Part shown: one piece after another, positions 1,508 through 6,308 of the stretch
Numbering within the stretch: position 1 is the first letter of the stretch
How the letters are laid out: each line of letters begins with the position of its first letter
Origin: a virus
Reading direction: 5' to 3' (one strand)
Virus record (IMG/VR): IMGVR_UViG_3300050821_000402
Span: 1 to 23,458 of that record
DNA: 23,458 bases
Notes under the pieces: model-generated
Seen by the model: only the letters and a program-made list of their open reading frames with translations
Databases searched by the model: none
Told to the model about the DNA's origin: nothing
Program-made: the position numbers and the translations under genes

Positions 1508-1537
1508 TTGACTGTTAATAGAAGATTGTGATATACT
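1508..1537 (+). promoter_or_regulatory. Sigma70-type promoter with extended -10
   Basis: The -35 box TTGACT (1508-1513), an 18-base spacer and the -10 box TATACT (1532-1537), preceded by TG at 1529-1530, make a near-consensus housekeeping promoter. Transcription should begin near 1544, about 30 bases before the ATG at 1574. It is the best classical promoter in the window and implies that the two genes after it are expressed by host polymerase without phage factors. Confidence 0.75.
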
Positions 1538-1548
1538 ATCTATGTAAT

Positions 1549-1565
1549 GCCGCGAGGCAGAAAGG
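1549..1565 (+). promoter_or_regulatory. Leader mini-hairpin plus RBS (first copy)
   Basis: GCC-GCGA-GGC (1549-1558) can fold into a 3-bp stem closed by a GNRA tetraloop and is followed by AGAAAGG, the ribosome binding site for ATG 1574. A matching element lies before the next gene (1976-1992). Its presence in the leader argues for translation starting at 1574 rather than at the ATG at 1547, which lies almost on the predicted transcription start. Confidence 0.45.
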
Positions 1566-1573
1566 AATTACAA

Positions 1574-1957
1574 ATGTATAAACCAAATTGGAAAAGAAAT
1601 GCAATTCATTATGCAGCTATGCAAATTGCAGGTGCAGATTCACACACTGAAATGTTCAATGCCATCTGCTTTGCTCCGAATGCAACGATTAGTGGAATTA
1701 GAGATGGACAATTCTTTTCTCTGTCGCCTAATCAAGCCAAAGAGACTCTAAAGCAACGAATTATCTCTTGCGTAAAAATGATGAAGCCATATATGCATAG
1801 CGGCGTGATCGGTTATTCATTGGTGTCTGTTTCTGAATTAGAAAAGGCACTTGATGTTATTTTCTCCACACCAAACAAGTATCAAAAGTTAGTTAATGAC
1901 ATTAATGAATACTTTCTTGCAAACGACCACAGAAATGCCAAGGTTGTCTTGGTCTAA
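1574..1957 (+). CDS. Unrecognised protein, first gene of AT-rich unit
   Basis: A 127-residue protein that I do not recognise. It starts MYKPNWKRNA, has no transmembrane segment or signal peptide, and appears to be a small mixed alpha/beta cytosolic protein with several Met/Ile-rich helices. ATG 1574 is preferred over ATG 1547 because AAAGGA stands 7 bases before 1574 and the predicted transcription start is near 1544. It is visibly more AT-rich than the structural genes. It forms a two-gene unit with the gene at 2000, bounded by its own promoter and a terminator. That arrangement is typical of phage morons, which often carry host-modifying or exclusion functions. No function can be assigned. 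Confidence 0.75.
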   Translation: MYKPNWKRNAIHYAAMQIAGADSHTEMFNAICFAPNATISGIRDGQFFSLSPNQAKETLKQRIISCVKMMKPYMHSGVIGYSLVSVSELEKALDVIFSTPNKYQKLVNDINEYFLANDHRNAKVVLV

Positions 1958-1975
1958 CAACATAATCCATCAACC

Positions 1976-1992
1976 GCCGACAGGCAGAGAGA
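1976..1992 (+). promoter_or_regulatory. Leader mini-hairpin plus RBS (second copy)
   Basis: GCC-GACA-GGC (1976-1985) followed by AGAGAGA repeats the arrangement at 1549-1565: same stem, a GNNA loop, a purine-rich ribosome binding site, and 14 bases (versus 15) to the ATG. The match is 13 of 17 bases. It could be a shared recognition element for translation control of the two genes. Confidence 0.4.
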
Positions 1993-1999
1993 TAATAAT

Positions 2000-2524
2000 A
2001 TGAAGAATCAATACAATCCACATAGAGCAGCAAGGAGAGCAGCACAACGGTCTACTGCTAAGGCACAACACTTGAACGAATTGGGACAACAGTTCCAAGC
2101 ACAAGCCAGCAAATTAGTGAAGTCTGGATATGCTGGCATCGGCTACATGTTGGGACGTAAGTCTAACGGGAAGAACCGCCTCGGCGGCTACGGTGATTTC
2201 ATCAAGCGGGTCGCATCCGATGAAGAATCGGGGAAAGAAATGGATGCTTGGATGTTACTCCGAATCTCTCAAGGATATATGCCACTGTTCCGTTATTATT
2301 TCTCCGAGTCAGATATTACAAACAAGACTTTCAAGAATCATACTGTCTACCGTGGAAGGATGAATAGTTACTATACCGTTGTTGAAGTCGTCCCAACAGA
2401 TTCCTTCAATGGAACATCAAAAAATGTGTCACGACTTTTTGATGAACTTTATGATGACTTGGGACGAGAACGAGCAGCAGATGAATTGTCATCTACTATA
2501 GGTATGAAACTGATGTATTTCTAA
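2000..2524 (+). CDS. Unrecognised basic protein, second gene of AT-rich unit
   Basis: A 174-residue protein that I do not recognise. The first ~45 residues are rich in Arg, Ala and Gln (HRAARRAAQRSTAKAQ) and look like a basic helix able to bind nucleic acid. A Gly/Tyr/Lys-rich stretch follows (GYAGIGYMLGRK ... RLGGYGDF), then a tyrosine-rich section (YYFSESD, SYYTVVEVV) and an acidic C-terminus. No membrane segment, signal peptide or metal-binding motif is seen. The RBS is weak and purine-rich (AGAGAGATAA) and follows a mini-hairpin like that of the gene before it. The unit ends at the terminator 27 bases downstream. The unit structure suggests a moron; the function is unknown. Confidence 0.75.
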   Translation: MKNQYNPHRAARRAAQRSTAKAQHLNELGQQFQAQASKLVKSGYAGIGYMLGRKSNGKNRLGGYGDFIKRVASDEESGKEMDAWMLLRISQGYMPLFRYYFSESDITNKTFKNHTVYRGRMNSYYTVVEVVPTDSFNGTSKNVSRLFDELYDDLGRERAADELSSTIGMKLMYF

Positions 2525-2550
2525 TCAAGGTAACAACAACTCACTCAAAC

Positions 2551-2579
2551 AAAGCCAGCCCTAATAAGGCTGGCTTTTT
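2551..2579 (+). terminator. Rho-independent terminator before dpdA operon
   Basis: A 10-bp stem AAAGCCAGCC / GGCTGGCTTT (2551-2560 and 2568-2577) with loop CTAATAA runs into TTTTT. It ends the two-gene AT-rich unit and means that the next operon needs its own start of transcription between 2580 and 2632. Confidence 0.9.
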
Positions 2580-2603: not shown

Positions 2604-2631
2604 CACCTCACCTAAATATCTCTGAGGTGAG
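2604..2631 (+). promoter_or_regulatory. Hairpin able to mask the dpdA ribosome binding site
   Basis: CACCTCA (2604-2610) pairs with TGAGGTG (2623-2629). In a second register CTCACCT (2607-2613) pairs with AGGTGAG (2625-2631). The right arm is the dpdA Shine-Dalgarno sequence GAGGTGA, so either fold would block initiation. The motif CTAAATAT lies in the loop. If transcription starts just after that motif the left arm is not in the RNA, and only read-through RNA would be silenced. Confidence 0.5.
2612..2619 (+). promoter_or_regulatory. CTAAATA motif upstream of dpdA (putative phage promoter)
   Basis: CTAAATAT ends 13 bases before ATG 2633. It is the only promoter-like sequence between the terminator at 2551-2579 and dpdA, and no -35 box stands at the right distance. 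It resembles the T4 late core TATAAATA; a start 6-7 bases downstream would leave a short leader holding GAGGTGA. Confidence 0.45.
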
Positions 2632-2632
2632 T

Positions 2633-4159
2633 ATGAACGACAGAACAGTAGCTCAGGACGATCTAACTGCAAAGCTGTTAGGCACTGATGGGCTACCAAA
2701 ATACGCTGTATACCTTCCAGCCATTTCCAATTTCTTTGCGGGATACATCGGACGCCAGCGATACATGTCGCGAGGATGCATCGATGACGAACGCATGCCT
2801 ACTGCGTTCGAAAGAGGCATTGAAGGGTTGAACTGGATGAACAAGGCAGAAGGATACTTCTACTACAAGCACAACCTATACAGTGCAGGTCACGCCAATC
2901 TCGATACAACCAAGCACAGCATAAAAGAAGCGATGATTCGCGAACGCAACCGCACTGATAGCTGGCTGTTAGGTGATTCTGGCGGATTCCAGATCGGCAA
3001 AGGAGTATGGCAAGCAGATTGGAAAGACCCAAACTGTCCCGCTGCACTGGCGAAGCGAAAAGAGGTGCTGGCATGGATGGAGGCATACATGGATTACGGC
3101 ATGGTTCTCGACATTCCTGCATGGGTGCGCAAGACAGAGAGAGGCCGTGCAGCTTCAGGCATCAGCACGTTCGGCGAAGCCATACAGGCGACCAGCATCA
3201 ACAACGAATTCTTCATGCGGAACAGAACAGGCGCTTGCAAGTTCCTGAATGTGATGCAGGGCGGCAATCACAAGGAATCCGAAGACTGGTATCAACGCAT
3301 GAAGAAGTTCTGCGATCCAAAGCAGTATGAAGCGCCGTTCAACGGATGGGCCTGTGGAAGCCAAATCGCTTGTGATCCGCACTTGACGTTGAAGCGGCTC
3401 ATTACCTGTCGTTTTGATGGATTGCTCGAACCCGGTTTGCACGACTGGATTCACGTCCTCGGCAACAGCGACATGGAATGGGTTCTGCTTCTGTCTGACA
3501 TGCAGAGAGCAATCCGCAAATATCACAATCCCCAAGCTGACGATCAGCTACGACTGTGCCAGAGCCCATTTGTCGCGACAGTCCACGGCCAGCTCTACAA
3601 CGACATCATTGGCAACAACCCAAAGCACTGGAGATTCCCAAATGAATGGGCCATCGACGACAAGAAATACGCAAATGACAATCGCCCTTTCAAGGATGTC
3701 GCAGAGCAAGACGAACATTTCGCGAGATTTGTTGACAGTCCAATTTCAGCTCGATTAAAGATTAGCGATGTTTGCGTCTACAGTTCTGGCGATCTGAACA
3801 AGCTCGGGAAGGTAAGCAAGAACAGTTGGGACAGTTTCAGCTATGCGCTGCAAATGGCCCACAACGTCTGGATGCACACAGAGACGACGCAGGAAGCCAA
3901 CAGACGCTATGACGCTGGCCTGTATCCGTCGGTGATGACGACAGCAACGTCAGGCCGAAAGAGCACGTTGTATTTTGACCGCCTCTATTGCAGCGACATC
4001 ATCAACGACATTTGGGAAACCAGCGACTACGGCAAAGCCATGAAGCTGATTGACCACTACAGCAGTTATTGGATGAACTTCCGAGGTGTGCGTGGGAACT
4101 TCGGACCTAAAGCAAAGAACTCGCTAACGGCGTTCGATCACATATTTCAAGAGGCATGA
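2633..4159 (+). CDS. dpdA: DpdA, TGT-like 7-deazaguanine DNA transglycosylase
   Basis: A 508-residue member of the tRNA-guanine transglycosylase superfamily, most like phage DpdA, which exchanges guanine in DNA for a preQ0-type base. In order: DSGGFQ (115-120), the substrate-pocket motif of TGT enzymes; LDIP (159-162), whose Asp matches the second base-binding Asp; NVMQGGN (206-212), like VQGG of TGT; GWACGSQ (238-244), like the GGL segment; and DWIHVLGNS (271-279). The C-terminal zinc motif (CxCxxC...H) of tRNA enzymes is absent, as expected for DpdA. Where I would align the nucleophilic Asp the sequence reads LRLCQSPF (~306-313); an alternative aspartate is in NSWDSFSYA (~397-405). ATG 2633 is chosen over GTG 2627 because GAGGTGA overlaps the GTG. 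It is followed after one base by queD, so the two are translationally coupled. The family call is firm; substrate and activity are inferred. Confidence 0.85.
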   Translation: MNDRTVAQDDLTAKLLGTDGLPKYAVYLPAISNFFAGYIGRQRYMSRGCIDDERMPTAFERGIEGLNWMNKAEGYFYYKHNLYSAGHANLDTTKHSIKEAMIRERNRTDSWLLGDSGGFQIGKGVWQADWKDPNCPAALAKRKEVLAWMEAYMDYGMVLDIPAWVRKTERGRAASGISTFGEAIQATSINNEFFMRNRTGACKFLNVMQGGNHKESEDWYQRMKKFCDPKQYEAPFNGWACGSQIACDPHLTLKRLITCRFDGLLEPGLHDWIHVLGNSDMEWVLLLSDMQRAIRKYHNPQADDQLRLCQSPFVATVHGQLYNDIIGNNPKHWRFPNEWAIDDKKYANDNRPFKDVAEQDEHFARFVDSPISARLKISDVCVYSSGDLNKLGKVSKNSWDSFSYALQMAHNVWMHTETTQEANRRYDAGLYPSVMTTATSGRKSTLYFDRLYCSDIINDIWETSDYGKAMKLIDHYSSYWMNFRGVRGNFGPKAKNSLTAFDHIFQEA

Positions 4160-4160
4160 C

Positions 4161-4598
4161 ATGGAAATAACTACAGCAACACGATTTCACGACTTTTCAG
4201 CGGGTCACCGGGTTCATGGGCACGAAAGCAAATGCAGCAATTTGCATGGGCACAATTACAGAGTCACCTTCACCTGTCAGGCGCACAAGCTCGACAGCGT
4301 GGGCCGAGTGATCGACTTCAGCGTTATCAAAACTGAGCTTTGCGACTGGTTAGAGGACAACTGGGATCACAACTTTCTGCTTTGGGAGAAAGACGATTCA
4401 GTGATTGCACAATTGTTGAATTGCTCGCATGGGTTCTTTGGCGTCATCCGCGTTCCATTCAACCCAACAGCGGAGAACATGGCTTCGCATTTGCTACAGG
4501 TCGGCAACAGGCTACTGAATCCCAAAGGCATTCAGGTTGTGAAAGTTGTTGTAGAGGAAACACGCAAATGTTCAGCAGCGGCAGAACGTTGCGCATAG
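4161..4598 (+). CDS. queD: QueD, 6-carboxy-tetrahydropterin synthase
   Basis: A 145-residue protein of the 6-pyruvoyl-tetrahydropterin synthase family. It converts dihydroneopterin triphosphate, the FolE product, to 6-carboxy-5,6,7,8-tetrahydropterin in the route to preQ0. Zinc ligands His16, His29 and His31 (AGHRV, LHGHNY) and the catalytic Cys25 in KCSNLHGH are present, as are DHNFL, NPTAEN and the C-terminal VVEET that binds the pterin. All key residues seem intact, so this enzyme should work. Its start is one base after the dpdA stop, with AAGAGG inside the dpdA end as RBS. Placed between dpdA and folE, it points to 7-deazaguanine DNA modification rather than folate or biopterin metabolism. 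Confidence 0.92.
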   Translation: MEITTATRFHDFSAGHRVHGHESKCSNLHGHNYRVTFTCQAHKLDSVGRVIDFSVIKTELCDWLEDNWDHNFLLWEKDDSVIAQLLNCSHGFFGVIRVPFNPTAENMASHLLQVGNRLLNPKGIQVVKVVVEETRKCSAAAERCA

Positions 4599-4626: not shown

Positions 4627-5341
4627 ATGTCACTGGATATAAAGAAAACAGACGCAGAGTTAGGCAAGCAAATAGAAGCACATTTGAAGGCGAAAGGTGT
4701 AAACACCCCGACCGTTACCCCATATATGACTAACGAGTCAGGCAACAAGGCGCGATGGCCCGAAGGCACGGACTTTGAGCTTGTTCAGATTGCAGAGCGA
4801 TTCGAACAGATCATGACAATCCTTGGACTGGACATCACAGACGACAGCTTGCGCGAAACACCGACACGTGTTGCAAAGATGCTTCTACAAGAAACGATGT
4901 GGGGCCTGAAGCCAGCCAATTTCCCAAAATGCACGACAGTTGAAAACAAGATGGGCTATGACGAAATGGTTGTTGAAAAGAACGTCACAGTGCAGTCCCG
5001 TCTGTGAGCATCATTGGGCAATCATCGACGGTCACGCGACGATAGCATACATTCCATCGACCAAGATTATCGGTCTGAGCAAGCTCGGCAGAATTACGGA
5101 GTATTTCGCACGTCGCCCACAGATTCAAGAACGTCTGACTGAGCAAGTGTTCCACTCGCTCTCATACATTCTGGAAACCGACAATATCGCCGTGCTCATT
5201 GAGGCTGACCACTACTGCGTGAAATCACGAGGAATTCAGGATCAAAACAGCAAAACGGTCACAAGCAAGCTCGGCGGTCTGTTTCGATCTGATCCACGAA
5301 CACGCGAAGAGTTTATGAGCTTGGCTCGCAGAATCGATTGA
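4627..5341 (+). CDS. folE: FolE, GTP cyclohydrolase I, with +1 frameshift
   Basis: Two overlapping frames together encode one GTP cyclohydrolase I, which turns GTP into dihydroneopterin triphosphate. The first frame (4627-5007) ends ...NVTVQS then TGA shortly after. The second frame resumes exactly in register with [19 protein letters not shown] and runs to 5341. The 715-base span is 237 codons plus stop plus one extra base. Joined, residues ~124-129 read SVCEHH, aligning with STCEHH of E. coli FolE; the second zinc cysteine is in HYCVKSRG. The shift maps to TCC-C at 4996-4999. It may be a real mutation, a programmed +1 frameshift, or a base error in CCC. The RBS AGGAG (4614-4618) is good. 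The first frame alone lacks the zinc site and would be inactive. Confidence 0.85.
4996..5007 (+). other. Frameshift site in folE
   Basis: In the upstream frame the codons are TCC CGT CTG TGA; skipping one C gives TCC GTC TGT GAG, which restores Ser-Val-Cys-Glu. The zero-frame stop comes two codons after the shift point. No RF2-type internal Shine-Dalgarno is visible just upstream, so programming is possible but unsupported beyond the TCC-C context. Confidence 0.7.
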
Positions 5342-5359: not shown

Positions 5360-5611
5360 ATGAACACATTAGAAGTAGATGACAACCTTGTAGAAGAGGC
5401 ATTTGATAAAGGCTACATAAATCAATGGGAATGCAACTTCGTTCTGAATCTGGTCAATTTCGCAACCCTATCCGACAAGCAGACCGCAAAGCTAAAGCTG
5501 ATCGTGAAGAAGATCGCCAGAGGATTCCAAAGAGAACAGCTTGCACATGAGCCTGTTGCATCGCAGGAGCCTAAACGCTGTCCAACCTGTCGTCAGATCA
5601 TACACACATAA
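5360..5611 (+). CDS. Small protein with C-terminal CxxC, unrecognised
   Basis: An 83-residue protein with a good RBS (GAGGAGAAC). Residues ~1-60 look helical (EEAFDKGYINQWECNFVLNL, TAKLKLIVKKIARGF), and the tail has RCPTCRQIIH, half of a zinc ribbon or the remains of one. Phage proteins of this shape occur near replication genes, where helices like these cap a zinc finger. This is a general resemblance and not an assignment. It follows folE by 18 bases but has its own upstream TAAATA motif. No function can be given. Confidence 0.7.
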   Translation: MNTLEVDDNLVEEAFDKGYINQWECNFVLNLVNFATLSDKQTAKLKLIVKKIARGFQREQLAHEPVASQEPKRCPTCRQIIHT

Positions 5612-5627
5612 AGGAAGGCACTCGTTT

Positions 5628-6077
5628 ATGGCTATCCCGTCGCAATATAGCAAGGATCGCAAGACACTAAACGAAATGCAGTCATTTCGCACCAGACTCA
5701 AGGACACCTACGCCCGACTTAAGAAAAGCGGCGCAGACTCCGACGCACTTAACGAGATTCTCGCATGCAGAGCACTCGTGTCAGCATACACTTGGCCAAC
5801 TCATTTGGAACAGGTCGAGTCAATTCTGAGGAAATATCAATCTCCTGTTGCACGAGAACGTCGAGAAGGGCTGACAGGCGATTCTTCTGACATCGAGGTT
5901 GTTTTCGGAGCGACTGAGACAACGGACGAATACAGAGCAATGATTAGGACACGTCAGGAGAAGGCACGTATAAAGGGCGGCCGATTTCGCAAGCTCAGCT
6001 TTCAATATGCGCTGCATAACGTCAGGGTTGGATTCGATGAGTCGATTCTGGCTGCGATGCCTGATGATCAGTTTTAG
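5628..6077 (+). CDS. Unrecognised 149-residue protein
   Basis: It starts at ATG 5628 (MAIPSQYSKD), with AAGGAAGG 9 bases before it. A longer reading from 5541 would overlap the previous gene's coding region and is rejected. The protein is charged and mainly helical: an N-terminal helix with MQSFRTRLKDTYARLKKSG, a middle section with LEQVESILRKYQ, and a basic section RTRQEKARIKGGRFRKLSF near the end. No cysteine motif, membrane segment or signal peptide. The basic C-terminal part could contact nucleic acid. It is 16 bases after the previous gene and probably in the same transcript. I do not recognise the family. Confidence 0.75.
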   Translation: MAIPSQYSKDRKTLNEMQSFRTRLKDTYARLKKSGADSDALNEILACRALVSAYTWPTHLEQVESILRKYQSPVARERREGLTGDSSDIEVVFGATETTDEYRAMIRTRQEKARIKGGRFRKLSFQYALHNVRVGFDESILAAMPDDQF

Positions 6078-6108
6078 GCCATTAACGGCACCAAATTGCG
6101 TTGATCGA

Positions 6109-6116
6109 GTAAATAG
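6109..6116 (+). promoter_or_regulatory. GTAAATA motif upstream of small gene 6141
   Basis: GTAAATAG within GATCGAGTAAATAGA (6103-6117), near-identical to 5336-5350. It ends 24 bases before ATG 6141, with CAGGAGAAC as the RBS between. Here the motif lies in an intergenic gap, not in a stop codon. Confidence 0.4.
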
Positions 6117-6140
6117 ATGTGTGGCAGGAGAACGATATAC

Positions 6141-6308
6141 ATGAGCACACAGCTATTGAATGATTACGAAACAATCAGAAGGAAGAGGGTGGATTATGCA
6201 AAAGAATGGGGTGACTATTGGAGGTCGCTTAGTCTGGGAATCCATGTAGACAGGCCAACAATCAAGCACATTAAGATCAAGCAAACGCCCGGTTACGACA
6301 AATACTAA
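6141..6308 (+). CDS. Small basic protein, unrecognised
   Basis: A 55-residue protein starting MSTQLLNDYE, with AGGAG placed 8-9 bases upstream; a longer start at 6117 would lack this RBS. It is rich in Lys, Arg and aromatic residues (RRKRVDYAKEWGDYW; IKHIKIKQTPGYDKY) and has no recognised motif. Small basic phage proteins like this often bind nucleic acid or a host protein, but nothing here decides it. Its TAA stop is part of the TAAATA copy at 6305-6312. Confidence 0.65.
   Translation: MSTQLLNDYETIRRKRVDYAKEWGDYWRSLSLGIHVDRPTIKHIKIKQTPGYDKY

Follow-up and report, generated by a model that had tools for sequence, protein, structure and literature searches.

A recurrent start-associated mini-hairpin heads both genes of a putative accessory cassette beside the integrase gene of a siphovirus

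Two genes, here named A and B, lie between the integrase gene (int) and the next operon of an int-bearing siphovirus, and a short hairpin of similar sequence precedes each of their start codons. A sequence-only reading had described the pair as an AT-rich moron, suggesting expression independent of the phage programme, as in lysogeny, and a translational control shared by both genes. This raises the question of whether A and B really form a separate unit of this kind and of what their leaders reveal about it. The window analysed here is the whole IMG/VR virus record IMGVR_UViG_3300050821_000402 (23,458 bases), which is possibly a fragment.

The first gene of the window is int (77-1312), followed by A and B, then by a gene encoding a 510-aa protein (2627-4159) and by the gene of QueD. 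Downstream are found a frame-broken FolE gene, small genes including an HNH gene, the small and large terminase genes, then those encoding the portal, the protease, the major head protein, connectors, a tape-measure-like protein and a lambda-J-like tail protein. The 510-aa protein adjoins QueD and FolE (2627-4598) and is presumably, from this context, a DpdA-like enzyme of 7-deazaguanine DNA modification. Relatives of this protein are encoded in 207 viral stretches; 12 members of the family gave no Pfam match and their profile gave no PDB match. The reading frame of FolE (GTP cyclohydrolase, 4627-5341) is broken near 5005, and a relative found in locus L003 (2474-3181) matches both halves within one frame. 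At the other end of the window, a large imperfect hairpin (5-70) lies directly 5' of the int start codon; the fold of positions 1-85 reaches -30.3 kcal/mol (z -3.7), and this structure could be an attachment site or a regulatory structure.

The borders of the A-B unit are formed by predicted transcription signals, all on the + strand. On the left, a terminator following int (1340-1365) combines an 11-bp stem with a T-run (-18.9 kcal/mol, none of 200 shuffles being as good); since int thus has its own terminator, the unit is sealed at either end. On the right, the terminator that had been described as strong is indeed so, with a 10-bp stem (2551-2577) and a T-run extending to 2579, a folding energy of -16.6 kcal/mol and, again, no equal among 200 shuffles. 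Between them, a sigma-70-type extended -10 promoter is predicted at 1508-1537 (TTGACT-N18-TATACT with a TG before the -10 hexamer). It had been called almost perfect, which is slightly generous since each hexamer has one mismatch. Nevertheless, it is the top site of the window, with 10 of 12 consensus bases plus TG and a score of 12 on an in-house scale, the runners-up scoring 9 on the + strand and 11 on the - strand. When the 208-nt non-coding stretch underwent 2000 dinucleotide shuffles, this score was matched in 7 cases. Shuffling the whole window gave an equally good promoter somewhere on the + strand in 19 of 100 cases, so that the location of the site matters to the argument. The A-B transcript would be expected to start near 1544.

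The segment 1508-2579 is more AT-rich than its surroundings, as had been noticed, with 40.4% GC against 49.6% for the window; int is likewise low (45.9% GC). Genes A and B have the lowest GC3 values among 30 gene calls (0.352 and 0.417, respectively), yet their codon preference lies within the range of the other genes of the phage. A foreign origin is thus weakly suggested, the codon use being phage-like.

Separate control of A and B also fits the distribution of the hexamer TAAATA, mostly found as [CG]TAAATA. It occurs 12 times on the + strand (2613, 5343, 6110, 6306, 7003, 8298, 11000, 15009, 16684, 19037, 21427 and 21797) and once on the - strand, whereas 200 shuffles gave a mean of 2.2 and a maximum of 6. 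For [CG]TAAATA, the 11 occurrences on the + strand compare with 0.78 expected, the most extreme value of 798 strands compared. Eight of the 12 copies lie 9-31 nt 5' of gene starts and the other four 84-952 nt 5'. The first one, at 2613, is just past the A-B terminator and none precedes int or A-B. The element resembles the T4-like late promoter, described as TATAAATA and, in the cyanophage S-PM2 version, as NATAAATA (PMC2984593), although it would here be carried by an int-bearing siphovirus whose record may be incomplete. A 7-bp stem (2607-2631) surrounds the first TAAATA, just 5' of the start at 2633; 4 of 200 shuffles fold equally well. With its own promoter, flanking terminators, a position adjacent to int and no TAAATA element, the A-B unit is predicted to be transcribed apart from the neighbouring operons, in agreement with the independent transcription first proposed; these are predictions from sequence, and a promoter and terminator of its own are what a moron should possess.

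The second part of the question concerns the leaders. A 16-nt element, GCCGNNAGGCAGARAG, precedes the ATG of both A and B, and its two copies are as had been described (GCC-GNNA-GGC followed by AGARAG). The first (GCCGCGAGGCAGAAAG, 1549-1564, + strand) is a GCC-GCGA-GGC mini-hairpin with a GNRA loop, followed by AGAAAG that runs into the Shine-Dalgarno sequence AAAGGA. The second (GCCGACAGGCAGAGAG, 1976-1991, + strand) is a GCC-GACA-GGC mini-hairpin followed by AGAGAG; its loop is GNYA and not GNRA. The copies are alike at 13 of 16 positions and are exactly the two that the record holds, the next-best matrix score elsewhere in the window being 3.5 against about 25 for the leaders. The likeness is not due to chance: this pair is the most similar of 435 pairs of gene starts, and its similarity was reached by 13 of 20,000 shuffle pairs. 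It does not reflect a shared peptide either, because the elements start 25 nt (A) and 24 nt (B) 5' of the ATG and are thus in different frames. The hairpins end 14-15 nt before the ATG. The folds are weak, with a 3-bp stem, z values of -1.4 and -1.7, and 20 and 15 of 200 shuffles folding equally well; the energy of the 10-nt stem is -3.4 kcal/mol, against -0.5 for one broken-stem form. No match at the gathering threshold of Rfam 15 was obtained in the window or in 8 other element-bearing loci, and the four weak matches in positions 1-2700 of the window (E 2.8-4.9) do not cover the leaders.

The same leader recurs in other viruses. A scan of viral contigs for GCCGNNAGGCAGARAG-N6..12-ATG found at least 120 stretches, against 29 for a single control arm (listed completely) in which the 3' arm GGC was replaced by the non-pairing CGG; for comparison, the word AGGCAGA is about 1.6 times commoner in the background than the control word. 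Each site was then classified by two features: an upstream frame of at least 50 open codons that continues across the hairpin, and an ORF of at least 50 codons beginning at the ATG. Of the 121 real sites listed, 52 are free of such a long frame and head an ORF of this length, as against 1 of the 29 control sites; a further 25 of 121 listed and 4 of 29, respectively, are free of a long frame but head no such ORF. Among the ORF-opening sites, 34 real ones (of 86 in the matches listed) and 13 control ones lie inside long frames, and these 34, as possible coding coincidences, were left out of the count of 52.

The 52 sites among the matches listed precede members of 41 protein families (blastp, 1e-4) and lie on contigs whose GC content spans 37-62%. 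The repeat is thus tied to the starts of unrelated genes, outside coding frames, and the shared translational signalling proposed for A and B, which their matched leaders support, may extend to these 41 families. The loop is GNRA in 36 of the 41 families. It is also GNRA in 70 of the 81 first real sites, but composition explains much of this bias since the control itself gives 21 of 29; a loop preference beyond composition is modest. Covariation is not visible because the search pattern fixes the stem. Thirty of the 41 family representatives were scanned against PHROGs and 12 matched at 1e-5, among which a major head protein, a small terminase, a holin, an ATPase and a lipoprotein. The presence of major head protein, small terminase and holin among these matches indicates that the element also marks the starts of core genes. 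Therefore, the leader lends no support to an expression of A and B in lysogeny.

Some contigs carry two or three copies of the element, each before a different gene. With a looser pattern, 16 of 20 element-bearing records contain one hairpin and 4 contain two or three, five of these 20 having been chosen for a multi-copy locus. The element is rare: with a relaxed pattern, unselected loci gave one intergenic match in 160 viral loci (2.2 Mb), ahead of a presumably Hok-like gene, and none in 80 bacterial loci. The leader of the unselected loci L109, L113 and L124 is not among the 121 sites, and the gene that follows it is presumably Hok-family-like. Exact searches for GCCGNAAGGCAGAAAG-N4..12-ATG in bacterial genomes returned 0 in 12 and 0 in 398 genomes (one genome being common to both sets); as the viral rate is too low and the amount of sequence covered too small, these zero counts do not prove a depletion. 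When named phages were searched by BLAST with a 30-nt consensus and with two leader-bearing genes, no convincing named example emerged. Three of 81 matching records were inspected: the Microviridae match looks coding, that of Klebsiella phage KLB29 lies inside a gene, and the copy of Vibrio phage BONAISHI lies between two annotated genes, more than 300 nt from the next annotated start. No description of such a hairpin was found in the open PMC literature. The leader is therefore a rare, recurrent start-associated mini-hairpin of bacterial viruses, and it does not single out genes of lysogeny.

A second conserved leader, GCCC-N3-GCCGG-GAT-GGGC-T-CCGG, was seen in 9 of the 120 leader-bearing contigs listed (L258, L261, L288, L289, L318, L320, L330, L333 and L342), with 11 copies, 8 of which are shortly 5' of the ATG of an ORF. 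Its arms could form a pseudoknot. It was found neither in the window nor in the unselected loci, and 8 of the 9 contigs (all but L258) gave no Rfam match.

The products of A and B give few clues to their role. Both genes are on the + strand and coding according to the phage's own codon statistics; A (1574-1957) encodes 127 aa and B (2000-2524) 174 aa, both orphans. An alternative in-frame ATG of A exists at 1547, and the Shine-Dalgarno sequence serves 1574. The two genes are in the same frame, with a single TAA at 1955 and no other stop before the ATG of B, an arrangement that chance could explain. Neither protein has a usable relative in Pfam, PHROGs, NCBIfam, PADLOC or PDB (the PADLOC and NCBIfam profiles giving zero matches), so the exclusion, anti-defence or fitness roles once suggested for them found no backing. 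The best Pfam match of B is Phasin_2 (E 0.0016, below the family cut-off), and the best PHROGs match aligns part of A with a 65-aa family of unknown function (E 0.0006). A PDB match of A to chain Ika8, which we take to be a designed propeller (E 7e-10 for the whole chain), was rejected, being the sum of eight near-identical repeats of 3-5 bits each; no single repeat passes alone and the matching stretch of A has no Pfam match. An HTH-like look of A is unsupported by any profile. Single-sequence AlphaFold models are poor (pLDDT 57.7 for A and 39.6 for B). The A model is helical with low confidence; a Foldseek search with it was empty at E 0.001, and the rows given by VIA-align, globin-like ones and others, had Z of at most 4.0. 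The B model has a long N-terminal helix, with very low confidence and an unreliable fold.

Related phages bring little more. Scans with exact 8-mer patterns retrieved no close relative of A, int or the large terminase (TerL) from viral contigs, nor of B from viral and genome contigs, and comparison of B with 150 genomes, in a search without a positive control, gave 0 matches. No tblastn match to int was obtained in 50,697 phage records at E 1e-5. The best identity of the large terminase is 41% among the matches listed and, since the TerL figures cover only these, closer phages may have escaped detection. Neither the exact 8-mer scans nor the matches listed yielded a relative with synteny. Genes at 5360-6305, the tape measure gene and several genes of the tail region are likewise matchless in the 247 compared loci. 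Because other genes of the phage are matchless too, and TerL reaches at most 41% among the matches listed, the orphan status of A and B says little. Judged from their position, the likeliest class of role would be a lysogeny-stage host function or a superinfection function.

The reading preferred here, to which a probability of about one half can be given, is that A and B form an accessory cassette of a temperate siphovirus, transcribed by the host polymerase, in which a recurrent start-associated hairpin opens each cistron and shields its Shine-Dalgarno sequence. This two-gene cassette would occupy the space between int and the following operon; from its anatomy, host RNA polymerase is predicted to transcribe it, starting at the sigma-70 promoter of the unit and stopping at its terminator. 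Each cistron would be headed by one copy of a hairpin with a 3-bp stem (GCC/GGC) and a loop of the GNNA type (usually GNRA), abutting the Shine-Dalgarno sequence. Once formed in the mRNA, this hairpin would block upstream RNA from pairing with the Shine-Dalgarno sequence and, by keeping it clear, could allow each cistron to be initiated separately. The hairpin might alternatively serve as a landing mark; an action in the mRNA by shielding appears the most likely.

A different view of the genes themselves is that, rather than being a moron, A and B belong to the early, lytic or regulatory genes, for instance as a control of integration. Host-type promoters also drive early phage genes, int is adjacent, codon use is phage-like and the leader also heads core genes. 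However, neither protein matches a regulator or excisionase family and the terminator seals the unit from the next operon. This view is rather unlikely, if less so than the other alternatives.

The accessory-cassette reading has a serious rival as regards the leader: this could be an mRNA site whose sequence is recognised by the ribosome or by an RNA-binding protein of the host or the phage, A and B being thereby co-regulated and pairing being secondary. The stem is only 3 bp long, and in 240 unselected loci GNRA hairpins, whatever their stem, were no more frequent before starts (48) than at a control position (63). Recurrence of the sequence before 41 gene families points the same way, though the search pattern fixed most of it. 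Nevertheless, such a reader would have to be widespread, since the 52 sites span contigs of 37-62% GC and unrelated gene classes, and we know of no widespread reader of such a leader. This explanation is unlikely, if still worth serious attention. A broader proposal, which can be made tentatively, is that GCC-GNRA-GGC-AGAAAG represents an undescribed family of cis-acting RNAs of bacterial viruses, a portable start hairpin that unrelated phages would use for core and accessory genes and that would be read by a widely conserved host factor or by the ribosome. In the window, it would serve twice, in a two-gene cassette driven by the host polymerase.

It is improbable that the leaders are gene-boundary repeats at which recombination between copies brings in or takes out cargo genes, A being the cargo caught between two copies. 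A is indeed flanked by one copy before and one after it, and a 53-nt block containing the element is identical in contigs L297 and L284, whereas the following genes differ. Upstream, the two contigs share similar DNA (93% over 1188 nt), which stops 28 nt short of the element in L284 but 312 nt short of it in L297, the latter having about 284 nt extra there. A parallel is offered by gene 14 of phage Corndog, reported with a 17-bp direct repeat on its flanks (PMC4351075). However, the copies of the window agree at just 13 of 16 positions, the searches made brought up no relative without A, and boundary repeats would need neither a hairpin nor a Shine-Dalgarno sequence. As a separate observation, the intercistronic element blocks of L297 and L353 share 92% identity over 91 nt, between different genes and with a variable small stretch before them.

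Finally, a coding artefact, in which upstream gene ends would encode Ala-x-Arg-Gln-Lys by chance, is very improbable: although 34 of the 86 ORF-opening real sites among the matches listed are in a long frame and a homologous set around L319 and L255 has the element before different genes, 52 of the 121 sites listed, against 1 of 29 in the control, open an ORF with no long frame through the hairpin, and no long frame enters either copy of the window from upstream.

If the element is functional, it would be a compact start signal common to unrelated phages, which could help to locate true gene starts in viral dark matter and point to a host factor exploited by phages. It could also provide a 16-nt insulator for synthetic ribosome-binding sites. 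Furthermore, the matched leaders of A and B would then be explained without any special link between these genes and lysogeny.

Comparison with known systems concerns both the unit and its leader. Like the moron loci described in PMC7067206, the A-B unit is predicted to have its own promoter, apart from the lytic programme, and consists of small unknown genes. Unlike them, as they are presented there, it has a phage-like codon use and lies on the same strand as the neighbouring operon. The moron identity appears only partly supported: the unit looks self-contained in transcription beside int and encodes proteins that are orphans in the searches made, but its codon use is phage-like. The leader shares with the operator of T4 gene 43 the organization of a short hairpin with a conserved loop in a phage mRNA leader (PMC3014915). 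According to this source, the T4 operator is an 18-base hairpin-loop that lies about 40 bases ahead of a single autoregulated gene, whereas the present hairpin has 10 nt, precedes many unrelated genes and has no known repressor.

From its description, the closest known system is the SAS of Cluster K mycobacteriophages, likewise a short conserved repeat found at the ribosome-binding sites of some of the phage genes, which belong to different families (PMC3203893). The SAS (GGGATAGGAGCCC, 13 bp) is reported to occur in nearly one orientation, mostly before ATG starts, with an outer GGG/CCC symmetry and no exact copy in the host genome; its function is given as unknown, a role in translation initiation being proposed (PMC3203893). 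It contains the Shine-Dalgarno core, 3-7 bp from the start, and is present in 11-19 copies per genome within one cluster (PMC3203893), whereas the hairpin described here is located 5' of the Shine-Dalgarno sequence, ends 14-15 nt before the ATG and is found in 1-3 copies on diverse contigs. Since sequence and layout differ, the leader of A and B is not a member of the SAS, though it is the same kind of thing.
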